Assembly (NCBI RefSeq): GCF_001647715.1
Contig: NZ_CP015600.1
Coordinates: 2,914,001 to 2,978,000, forward strand
DNA: 64,000 bases
Source: Pseudomonas antarctica
Lineage (GTDB): Bacteria > Pseudomonadota > Gammaproteobacteria > Pseudomonadales > Pseudomonadaceae
Direction: 5' to 3'
Position numbers and translations under genes: made by a program. The notes under the pieces are model-generated. The model had not been told where the DNA came from, made no database searches, and was given only the letters and a program-made list of their open reading frames with translations. This document shows positions 2,213 to 47,248 of this stretch, piece by piece (positions within the stretch are counted from its first letter, which is position 1; each line of letters starts with the position of its first letter).

Positions 2213-3013
2213 TTACGGCGCCATCAGCCCATTCACTGCACCGTAGGTGAAGGCCTTGAGGTCTTGGGTGTGCAAGGTGCCGGTGCGCAGGAAACCACCC
2301 GCGAGCTGGTGCATGGCCCCATAGAGGAACTCGGCGATGCTGGAACCCGCCGTCAAGCGCCGCACACCCAGCGCTTGCAGGCTTTCGGGAGTGGGCAGGT
2401 TGGCCCAGGCCAGTACATTGACGGGCAAGGGCGTGGCCTGGCACAGCTGCCGGATTTCGTGTTCAATGTGGATGCCGGCCGCGAACAAGCCGTCTGCACC
2501 TGCCTGCTGATAAATGCTTGCGCGGCGCACAAGCTCTTCCAGGCGTTGAGCCTCGGGGGCCAAGCCCTTGAGGTACACATCGCAGCGTGCATTGATAAAC
2601 AGCTTCACCCCGCAGCGATCGGCGATCTGGCGCGCCACTTCGATCTTGCGCGCCAATAGTTCAGGCGAACCGGCACCGTCTTCCAGGTTGATGCCCACGG
2701 CGCCGGCCTCGATCAGCGCTTCCACGAGTTGGCCGACCTGCTGCGGATCGTCCGAATAACCGCCTTCGATATCGACACTCAGGGGGACATCGATAACCCG
2801 CACGATGGAGTGCACAGTGCTGACCAGCAGCGGCTGCGGCAACTGGTTGCCATCCTTGTAACCATGCGCCCACGCCACGGCGGCGCTGCTGGTGGCAACG
2901 GCCTTACTGCCCAGTTGCGCCACCAGGCGCGCACCGCCGGCGTCGGCGACATTGGGCAGGATCAGCAAGGTGTCGCGGTGAAGGGCGTGGAAGGCGTCGG
3001 CGTGTGCGGGCAT
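2213..3013 (-). CDS. Isocitrate lyase/PEP mutase family protein
   Basis: A 266-residue TIM-barrel protein of the PEP mutase/isocitrate lyase superfamily. Diagnostic pieces are VDIEGGY (Mg-binding Asp/Glu), GINLEDG and NARCDVYL. Family members make or break C-C or P-C bonds next to a carboxylate, for example oxaloacetate hydrolases and carboxyphosphoenolpyruvate mutases; the loop residues seen do not settle which. ATG at 3013 has AAGGA ten bases upstream; the TTG two codons earlier is too close to that site. It lies upstream of aroA with a 111-base gap and may share its transcript. Confidence 0.85.
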   Translation of the reverse strand: MPAHADAFHALHRDTLLILPNVADAGGARLVAQLGSKAVATSSAAVAWAHGYKDGNQLPQPLLVSTVHSIVRVIDVPLSVDIEGGYSDDPQQVGQLVEALIEAGAVGINLEDGAGSPELLARKIEVARQIADRCGVKLFINARCDVYLKGLAPEAQRLEELVRRASIYQQAGADGLFAAGIHIEHEIRQLCQATPLPVNVLAWANLPTPESLQALGVRRLTAGSSIAEFLYGAMHQLAGGFLRTGTLHTQDLKAFTYGAVNGLMAP

Positions 3014-3344
3014 GGTCAATCAGTCCTTTGAGCGAGCGTTTTTTATTGAAGGCGCTTTTGATACCAAGAATCGGAGGACGGCCGCAACGAATAACCTAAT
3101 CCAGGTCGACATTTCCTACATCGGTGTCGACTTGGTGTCTTATCCCTAACGCAGCGTGTAGCCGTACCGCTCGTTACCGGGTAGGACTACTGCCAAAATT
3201 GATGCAGGACAAAGGCCTTTACTCCGCGAAACTGAGGCGAAGTATGAAGTTTCCGAGAGAAGTGCCTGCTGGACAATAAAACGCAGCGAGGTAAGTTCGA
3301 AGCGTGCCCCATGACGGGGCATATTCAATCAAGGAGTGAATGAA
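3014..3344. promoter_or_regulatory. Divergent intergenic region with an inverted repeat
   Basis: This stretch of about 330 bases separates the PEP-mutase-like gene from the AA10 gene and must hold both promoters. It contains an imperfect dyad, CCAGGTCGAC at 3101-3110 and GTCGACTTGG at 3126-3135, with 9 of 10 bases paired and a 15-base spacer. I found no convincing coding sequence, and a stop at 3312-3314 closes the AA10 reading frame upstream of its start. The dyad could be an operator; its regulator is unknown. Confidence 0.4.
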
Positions 3345-16502: not shown

Positions 16503-16832
16503 GTACATATCCGTTGCTGCGGTAACGGCGGCTTAGGGTTCCGCCCTTACGGCGGGTCACTTTTTTACAAAACGCCTAAAAAAGTAACCAAAAAACGCTT
16601 TGCCCCACCACTCGGTGCCTCGCCTAGGCTCGGCATGCCCGCACTCCGGCTTGAATCCGTGGGCCGCCGCAATGGGCCATCCTTGGCCCAGTGCGGCTAA
16701 CCCGGCGTCCTGCCGGGTTACCCACGGATTCAAGCCTGCGTTCGGCCATCGTGGTTAACGGGGCCTGTCAGATCAAAATCAAAAGCAGAGCACGGCGGCC
16801 TGGTAGCCGACCTGAGTGGTAGAAGCAAAAGC
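16503..16832 (+). repeat. Structured dispersed repeat, copy A
   Basis: About 330 bases nearly identical to 46191-46528 and related in inverted orientation to 46748-47085. It folds into several stems: GGTCACTTTTTT at 16555-16566 with AAAAAAGTAACC at 16578-16589; GGCTTGAATCCGTGGG at 16648-16663 with CCCACGGATTCAAGCC at 16721-16736; and inside the latter GGGCCA/TGGCCC and AACCCGGC/GCCGGGTT. No open frame is conserved among copies. The 3' boundary is approximate. Confidence 0.85.
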
Positions 16833-16864: not shown

Positions 16865-16967
16865 TGTGGGAGCTGGCTTGTCGGACCGCCGAACCGCTGC
16901 GATGCAGACACCTCGGTATATCAGGCATAAGCAGTGGATGCCATTGCAGGCAGGCCAGCTTCCATGG
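16865..16967. repeat. REPIN-like element (degenerate second arm)
   Basis: TGTGGGAGCTGGCTTG at 16865-16880 faces a degenerate complement, about CAGGCCAGCTTCCA, near 16951-16964. The same element, with intact arms, follows copy B of the structured repeat at 46589-46690. The pairing of large repeat and REPIN at both places suggests one composite unit. The rest of the gap 16431-17011 shows no gene. Confidence 0.65.
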
Positions 16968-17011
16968 AGCCCATCGCCGCCATTACCCAAACAATGGCTA
17001 TGTAGTCGCTA

Positions 17012-46089: not shown

Positions 46090-46190
46090 ACCCCGATCAT
46101 TTGGGGGGGGCTGGCTTGCCTGTGATAGTCATAGGTATCTACGCAACTCTTTGTGTTGCTTTGCGCCTGTTAGGGGGTTAGGTAGATTGA

Positions 46191-46528
46191 GTACATATCC
46201 GTTGCTGCGGTTACGGCTGCTTAGGGTTCCGCCCTTACGGCGGGTCACTTTTTTACAAAGCGCCTAAAAAAGTAACCAAAAAACGCTTTGCCCCACCACT
46301 CGGTGCCTCGCCTGGGCTCGGCATGCCCGCACTCCGGCTTGAATCCGTGGGCCGCCGCAATGGGCCATCCTTGGCCCAGTGCGGCTAACCCGGCGTCCTG
46401 CCGGGTTACCCACGGATTCAAGCCTGCGTTCGGCCATCGTGGTTAACGGGGCCTGTCAGATCAAGATCAAAAGCAGATCAAAAGCAGAGCACGGCGGCCT
46501 GGTAGCCGACCTGAGTGGTAGAAGCCAC
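46191..46528 (+). repeat. Structured dispersed repeat, copy B
   Basis: Nearly identical to 16503-16832, with a few single-base differences and a short extra AT/AG-rich insertion. The main stem is GGCTTGAATCCGTGGG at 46337-46352 with CCCACGGATTCAAGCC at 46409-46424. It lies in a 1.16-kb gene-free stretch (46090-47248). Confidence 0.88.
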
Positions 46529-46547
46529 AGCAGGGCAAAAGCACAGC

Positions 46548-46578
46548 AGAAGCAGATCAGAAGCAGATCAGAAGCAGA
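46548..46578 (+). repeat. Short tandem repeat, 11-base unit
   Basis: The unit AGAAGCAGATC occurs twice and then a nine-base partial copy, between copy B and the REPIN. Similar AGCAGATCAAA runs occur at the ends of all three large repeats, so copy number here may vary among strains. Confidence 0.75.
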
Positions 46579-46588
46579 ATTGCTTTTC

Positions 46589-46690
46589 TGTGGGAGCTGG
46601 CTTGCCTGCGATGCGGACACCTCGGTCCACCAAGTACACCGAGTTGATGCTATCGCAGCGGTTCGGCGGTCCGACAAGCCAGCTCCCACA
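46589..46690. repeat. REPIN between inverted copies B and C
   Basis: TGTGGGAGCTGGCTTG at 46589-46604 pairs perfectly with CAAGCCAGCTCCCACA at 46675-46690. A further half-REP with CAAGCCAGCTCCCACA occurs near 47206-47222. Confidence 0.88.
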
Positions 46691-46747
46691 TTTGATTAGG
46701 TTCAGCTTCCAAGATCAGGTCGGCTGTCAGGCCGCCTCGGTTTTGCT

Positions 46748-47085
46748 TTTGATCTAACCACTCAGGTCGGCTACTAGGCCGGCGTGCTCTGCTTTTGATC
46801 TTGATCTGTTTTTGATTTTGATCTTAGGCGCCCCGTTAACCACGCTGGCCGAACGCAGGCTTTGGAGCGTGGGTAACCCGGCAGGACGCCGGGTTAGCCG
46901 CACTGGGCCAAGGATGGCCCATGGCGGCGGCCCACGGTCCAAAGCCTGCGTGAGGGCACACCGAGCCTAGGCGAGGTGCCGAGTGGTGGGGCAAGAGCCC
47001 TTTGGTTACTTTGGGGCTTTTCCAAAGTGACCCGCCGTAAGGGCGGAACCCATGTCAGCCGTGACCCAAACAACGGATATGTACT
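46748..47085 (-). repeat. Structured dispersed repeat, copy C (inverted, diverged)
   Basis: On the minus strand this copies A and B with many substitutions, yet the stems remain paired by changes on both sides: GGCTTTGGAGCGTGGG (plus strand 46858-46873) with CCCACGGTCCAAAGCC at 46931-46946, and GGTTACTTTGG at 47004-47014 with CCAAAGTGACC at 47022-47032. Outer boundaries are approximate. Confidence 0.82.
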
Positions 47086-47248
47086 CAGCGCCCCCCCGAC
47101 AACCACAGCACTCAACCCGTAAAAAAAGAGGTGTAGATACCTATGCCGCGATAGCGGTCTATCAGTCACATCACATGGATGGTAAATGCGAAGCCGTCAT
47201 CGCAGGCAAGCCAGCTCCCACATGGAGAGAGGCCCGCCCGCCTGGCCG

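Follow-up and report, generated by a model that had tools for sequence, protein, structure and literature searches.

A dispersed repeat first noticed at positions 16503-16832 of a 64,000-nucleotide stretch of Pseudomonas antarctica DNA (the window; NZ_CP015600.1, positions 2,914,001 to 2,978,000) is best explained, with moderate confidence, as a non-coding, non-autonomous, structured mobile repeat of Pseudomonas that inserts in an orientation dependent on the replication fork. The earlier note had proposed a structured RNA, a non-autonomous mobile element, or both, and it is the last option that fits best. Kept hairpins, two conserved loops that resemble protein-binding sites and a mostly one-way orientation together suggest an element that is structured, mobile and coupled to the fork.

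All three copies described in the earlier note were recovered (16503-16832, 46191-46528 and, inverted, 46748-47085; hereafter A, B and C), with stems common to all. The exchanges of paired bases that it had quoted were also verified: CACTTTTTT...AAAAAAG in copies A and B stands where copy C has CACTTTGG...CCAAAG, and in the large stem TTGAAT/ATTCAA of A and B is TTTGGA/TCCAAA in C. Copies B and C are not, however, two independent copies, because they are the two arms of a single 1,016-bp composite (46130-47145), with a REPIN at its centre, terminal repeats of its own and an imperfect 10-bp flanking duplication (7/10). Behind copy A lie a REPIN and, as read by eye, an apparent relic of a right arm. 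The features of the window are as follows.

16503-16832, plus strand: arm of A type (copy A), co-oriented with replication
16641-16743, minus strand: TwoAYGGAY core of copy A (RF01731, 51.1 bits)
16866-16968, unstranded: REPIN-like spacer (GTGGGAGC...) behind copy A, limits set by eye
16969-17005, minus strand: what is left of an inverted right arm, a short relic (...CCATTACCCAAACAATGGCTATGTAG), by eye
46120-46129, unstranded: left 10-bp flanking duplication CTGTGATAGT (7/10 against the right copy)
46130-46151, plus strand: left terminal repeat CATAGGTATCTACGCAACTCTT of the composite
46191-46531, plus strand: arm of A type (copy B), co-oriented with replication
46329-46431, minus strand: TwoAYGGAY core of copy B (RF01731, 51.1 bits)
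46586-46692, unstranded: REPIN between arms B and C (GTGGGAGCTGGCTTGCC ... CAAGCCAGCTCCCAC), limits set by eye
46748-47085, minus strand: arm of C type (copy C), inverted partner of B
46846-46958, plus strand: TwoAYGGAY core of copy C (RF01731, 45.5 bits)
47124-47145, minus strand: right terminal repeat of the composite, reading CATAGGTATCTACACCTCTTTT on that strand
47146-47155, unstranded: right flanking duplication CCGCGATAGC

The repeat unit is an arm of about 330 bp, often arranged as inverted pairs of an A-type and a C-type arm around a REPIN. Its core pattern occurs in 52 of 69 Pseudomonas genomes and, among the 80 loci listed from a collection of named genomes, 79 belong to Pseudomonas and one to Atopomonas. 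The P. antarctica genome (G000) holds 54 whole or partial matches to copy A; the arms used from it, all full-length, were 21 of A type and 13 of C type. Within P. antarctica, each of the seven arm pairs checked has REP sequence in its spacer, and nine arm-pair spacers of the related genome G017 show it by eye. A crude gene caller, a GC3 script also used in the analysis of tandem genes below, placed 19 of 28 loci between convergent genes. Flanks were compared with those of loci fetched from G017, G010 and G005: two of 29 clusters (28 chromosomal, one on contig C2) share both flanks, each with G017, and five more share one, so turnover looks high. Plasmid carriage was rejected: copy B had no match in PLSDB, though one disrupted copy lies on contig C2 (below).

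Two subfamilies differ at their ends. The CATAGGTATCTAC-ended (CATAGG) subfamily consists of composites with inverted terminal repeats placed inside REPs. Both ends could be recovered in seven of nine such elements examined, and in six of these the 10-bp flanks agree at 8, 10, 9, 7, 9 and 10 of 10 positions; the seventh, internally deleted, agrees at 1/10, while crossed flanks as a control gave a mean of 4.0/10 with a maximum of 10. In the second subfamily, which includes copy A, the arm starts with GTACATATCC after a variable G/T-rich tract, and ends of CATAGG type are absent from this subfamily and from single arms. Across four arm groups the G+T content of this outer border is 0.75-0.89 over bases 1-10 and falls to 0.55-0.58 at 200-300 bases; in G005 arms the tract has ended by bases 10-20. 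Tracts adjoining arm ends are in part simple repeats (GTAG, GGGTT), for example at loci L110 and L104.

Contig C2 of the P. antarctica genome carries a disrupted arm copy (L069, 5555-6592), interrupted at internal position ~138/140 by about 1.1 kb with an apparently broken IS110-family transposase gene, and at L126 of G010 the spacer between two arms holds an insert of about 1.6 kb with an IS110-like transposase gene (2280-3308), both identified by eye. We considered these genes as a possible autonomous carrier, but read the inserts as insertion sequences that landed in the repeat and do not drive it.

The orientation of the arms mostly follows replication. Contig C1 of P. antarctica (6.44 Mb) has dnaA at position 1,064 and, at 3,263,238, a dif-like site. 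Every one of the 21 full-length A-type arms is directed away from dnaA and towards dif, co-oriented with replication, while 12 of the 13 C-type arms lie against it. The co-oriented exceptions are the C-type arm at 2,091,196 and two truncated C-like arms at 2,857,669 and 3,878,735. Left ends of the CATAGG subfamily agree with fork direction in 13 of 13 cases, a count not independent of that of the arms. Six other single-contig genomes mostly agree and two small sets disagree. In G017, five of five single-arm loci are co-oriented, and in all but one of 16 pairs it is the more A-like arm that runs with the fork, weakly so in two of the 15 (L107, L112). Nine stretches sampled from G005 gave six of six singles and three of three pairs co-oriented, as are five further matches listed from that genome. 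In G010, seven of eight single-arm loci are co-oriented (8/9 arms if tandem arms are counted separately), and of its pairs one is for, one against and one tied. An exact-pattern search returned 11 of 11 co-oriented single loci in G029, together with one unscored pair, 5/5 in G015 and 2/2 in G055. The contrary sets are G018 (1/3 co-oriented) and the singles of G061 (0/2). Pooled, 60 of 65 are co-oriented, or 59 of 64 without the G029 pair, here counted as co-oriented; G010 tandem arms enter separately, copies are treated as independent, and truncated arms, G003, G066 and five G061 pairs are left out.

Single-arm loci between tandem genes followed the fork in 10 of 10 cases, six pointing with the genes and four against both. 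Subject to the crude gene calls, these contexts separate fork direction from gene direction; two of the four loci against both genes (L117, L111) have well-scored genes on both sides. They also disfavour a sense placement in 3'-UTRs as the cause of orientation. Both loci common to P. antarctica and G017 are co-oriented in both genomes. Enrichment near ter, known for Tn7/TnsE and IS608, is present in G000 and G017, but was rejected as a general rule since it is not significant in G029 and the G010 copies are origin-proximal. We found no report of fork orientation for such repeats in the literature searched, which included few subscription papers.

We then turned to the fold. Against dinucleotide shuffles, copy A folds with z-scores of -6.8 (plus strand) and -7.5 (minus strand). 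In an alignment of 87 near-full-length arms from four genomes, 56 stem pairs in seven helices are 95.9% paired, and 30 of the 56 are altered on both sides, a number reached by none of 500 shuffles. Changes on both sides occupy 524 cells, compared with 161 +/- 9 for the shuffled sets; slid controls gave no more than 102, but these flatter the structure because it was derived from the same 87 sequences. Changes on one side that keep the pair occupy 16 cells. All these counts are of sequences, not of events on a tree. Covariation across many copies had been set beforehand as the check that could refute a structural claim; it was passed on four of five measures and failed on further pair types (48 against 48.8 in shuffles, no excess). 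Both this covariation and loop columns more constant than the stems support the claim that the fold is conserved, as against a passive repeat. In six arms of G005 (L133-L138) the base stem is retained but the whole tip domain is another one, a domain swap; these arms are left out of the loop, pairing and wobble counts that follow.

The minus strand of an arm forms a long stem that ends in two hairpins, whose loops are of the type CA(N)GGAYG. GGA is present in both tip loops of 79 of 81 arms, and loop 1 reads CANGGATG in 77 of 81; the N is free and in loop 2 often absent. The GGA columns are at least 98.8% conserved, against a stem mean of 0.865, and the stems differ by whole blocks. These tip loops appear to resemble the CsrA/RsmA site consensus. 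All three window copies score above the gathering threshold (43 bits) of the Rfam family RF01731, at 51.1, 51.1 and 45.5 bits, and the strand and place of the matches coincide with the minus-strand tip loops. In their letters, many arms have ATGGAT, while the window copies have AAGGAT and AGGAC and so are not exact AYGGAY. RF01731 is TwoAYGGAY, already published as a candidate RNA (PMC2864571, in its available part), for which available excerpts propose CsrA binding (PMC4333381) and extend the helix by covariation (PMC7657543). The arms share with it two adjacent hairpins, GGA loops and a long stem; they differ in that the structure is here the tip of a dispersed repeat of about 330 bp, matched without much of the model's outer stem. 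The cis-regulatory label given in Rfam is unsupported by the location of the arms, most of which lie between the 3' ends of genes.

Pairing in the stems is nearly the same on either strand (4429 of 4536 shared-pair cells are Watson-Crick). Among evolving pairs common to both folds, 31 cells are A-C, 6 G-T and 62 otherwise mismatched, of 2025; RNase P RNA under the same treatment (26 of 29 fetched sequences) gave 1 A-C, 40 G-T and 5 mismatched of 778. Wobble thus amounts to 1.8% (37/2025) in the arms and 5.3% (41/778) in RNase P. For the minus-strand fold there are 151 A-C and 6 G-T cells of 2511, an A-C on the plus strand being a G-U on the minus strand; RNase P wobble is of the sense type by 98 to 1. 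Of the arms' count, 68 of the 151 A-C cells come from one marginal column pair. Wobble in the arms is rare, and what exists points to the minus strand.

The minus-strand evidence raises the possibility of a structured RNA gene or 3'-UTR element, whose two GGA hairpins of CsrA/RsmA/RsmE type would titrate or recruit the protein and which would spread as a portable regulator. The RF01731 match on that strand, the constancy of the CA(N)GGAYG loops while the stems change, the CsrA binding proposed for TwoAYGGAY and a wobble skewed to the minus strand as that of RNase P is to its sense strand all speak for it. Set against this, read-through from the neighbouring genes would transcribe the wrong strand at 6 of the 10 tandem loci, RNase P has more wobble than the arms, whose count leans in part on the single column pair mentioned above, and an RNA role alone does not explain fork orientation. 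No sigma-70-like promoter was found in 46100-47200, which says little because shuffles average only 0.5 sites. We regard this as a possible but doubtful account of the family.

Orientation could instead arise by selection after insertion, copies placed the other way being unstable or harmful at the fork through hairpins, termination or pausing, and so lost. Its persistence across several genomes and both subfamilies, and at the two loci common with G017, is what such selection would leave. With nearly all shared-pair cells Watson-Crick, however, hairpin stability hardly depends on orientation, and inverted C arms are tolerated as partners. Selection of this kind appears unlikely; we infer that fork-coupled insertion ranks above it, as the fold is nearly strand-symmetric and a harmful hairpin would be expected to harm either way.

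The paired changes themselves might be mostly a mutational artefact, with hairpin-templated (template-switch) copying and gene conversion keeping stems complementary without selection on the fold. That stem blocks differ as wholes, with 524 both-side cells to 16 one-side cells, and that wobble is rarer than in RNase P, would be natural outcomes of this process, a published source of compensatory changes (PMC8794818, in its available part). Template switching does not protect the GGA loops, however, and these are among the most constant columns; wobble is also strand-asymmetric. Constant loops and asymmetric wobble suggest that template switching is not the whole story and that selection on the folded strand acts in addition. 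As the main source of the paired changes we hold it improbable, though template switching may well account for some of the clean double changes.

More speculatively, the repeat could be a bacterial counterpart of a SINE, in which a structured, possibly RsmA-binding minus-strand RNA is copied back by a reverse transcriptase acting in trans and primed at the fork. If true, this could jointly explain the strand-asymmetric covariation, the fixed fork orientation and the G/T-rich border (A/C-rich at the 3' side of the RNA), but we consider it a long shot. It is highly improbable that the family is a passive repeat whose folding and orientation merely follow its gene context, despite the 19 of 28 loci between convergent genes and a tail-to-tail bias reported for several Pseudomonas repeat families (PMC2718517, available text), given the covariation in 87 arms, the constancy of the GGA loops and the fork-following orientation in tandem contexts.

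Several other identities were rejected. The earlier note had stated that the copies share no open frame; this does not hold for copies B and C, which have a 52-amino-acid open frame, beginning with TTG, at corresponding positions, but a coding reading is still rejected. Across 84 arms with the start motif the frame has its exact length in 29, while 55 stop elsewhere (4-82 amino acids), and a Pfam search with six ORFs returned nothing above cut-off, one match reaching E 0.039 and 14.4 bits against a cut-off of 27. Differences between the A and C consensus fall at codon positions as 3, 6 and 11, a third-position excess judged too weak to indicate coding. In copy B, the plus-strand hairpin CCGCCCTTACGGCGG followed by a T-run scores as terminator-like (three sites in 46100-47200 against 1.2 in shuffles); an intrinsic terminator as the main function of the family was rejected because C arms do not keep the T-run. 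Matches to the Rfam families NiCo and IRES_HCV score far short of the gathering thresholds and were put down to chance.

We next compared the arms with known systems. The R200 and R26 repeats (320 and 352 bp, G+C 60-61%) were described in P. fluorescens SBW25, Pf-5 and Pf0-1, with 47 R200 copies in SBW25 (Silby et al. 2009, PMC2718517, in its available part). The arms are similar in length, G+C and copy number, a likeness by description and not by sequence, and the available text of that paper mentions neither fork orientation nor covariation nor A-REPIN-C composites. With REPINs and the REP-RAYT system (Bertels and Rainey 2011, PMC3116915, available part) the arms have in common that both are non-autonomous hairpin repeats of Pseudomonas, and a REP sequence lies between the paired arms checked. 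The arms themselves, about 330 bp long with other ends, are not REP doublets, that is, two inverted REPs within about 100 bp as a unit; the REPIN is their spacer.

Elements of the IS200/IS605 family and TnsE-directed Tn7 insert in an orientation that tracks replication direction (PMC5371812, available part), as arm orientation does except in G018 and G061. The arms differ from them in the 10-bp target duplications of one subfamily, and no linked transposase was found. When an arm is co-oriented, its minus strand, whose fold looks conserved, is the leading-strand template, whereas IS200/IS605 elements use the lagging-strand template. The CATAGGTATCTAC subfamily can be classed with MITEs: it has inverted repeats at its termini and target duplications of 10 bp, and no coding capacity was recognised in it. 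The second subfamily and single arms differ in lacking ends of the CATAGG type. A search of the P. antarctica genome that allowed up to 3 mismatches found no autonomous element with such ends: of 26 matches to the ends, 25 lie at the arm repeat and one is a 3-mismatch stray. The arm-end motif TACATATCC is absent from all loci (~3.3 kb each) of five matches to Y1 transposases (IS200-like/RAYT-type) in this genome, and a non-systematic look at flanks revealed no driver transposase or reverse transcriptase. Three Y1 transposase matches, one with an internal stop, lie within 6 kb on contig C1 of G000 (228,615-234,536; L287-L289). Repeats of this size class, tail-to-tail placement of repeat families and the candidate RNA were already published.

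Under fork-coupled insertion of a structured mobile repeat, our preferred reading, an enzyme acting in trans would mobilise the arm repeat by engaging either the replication fork or the single-stranded template there, and this engagement would set arm orientation, as in IS200/IS605 and TnsE-directed Tn7. Intergenic sites between gene 3' ends would be where insertions are tolerated. The folded strand may be recognised by the mobilising enzyme and/or, once transcribed, bind a protein of CsrA/RsmA type through its GGA loops. This analysis joins TwoAYGGAY, an unexplained candidate RNA, with probably known but likewise unexplained Pseudomonas repeats, and adds a testable property, an insertion orientation tied to the replication fork and not to gene direction. 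If this is confirmed, a harmless laboratory strain could serve for studying how fork direction is read by so small a non-coding repeat, and whether binding sites of the Csr/Rsm regulator are spread by a mobile repeat.

Some loci depart from the usual architecture of arms and pairs. At L057 (5618-6288) and L048 (5279-5627) the final ~80 bases of the arm are repeated behind it, three and two times respectively, and at L057 a REP-like sequence lies between the repeated ends. In G066, four arm pairs on contig C1 (531,087; 545,898; 1,106,966; 3,279,081) face outward, in place of the inward arrangement found elsewhere, and each is made of two different variants (GAG and GGG). At 3,279,081, past the dif site of that genome (1,971,241), the variants lie on swapped strands relative to the other three pairs.
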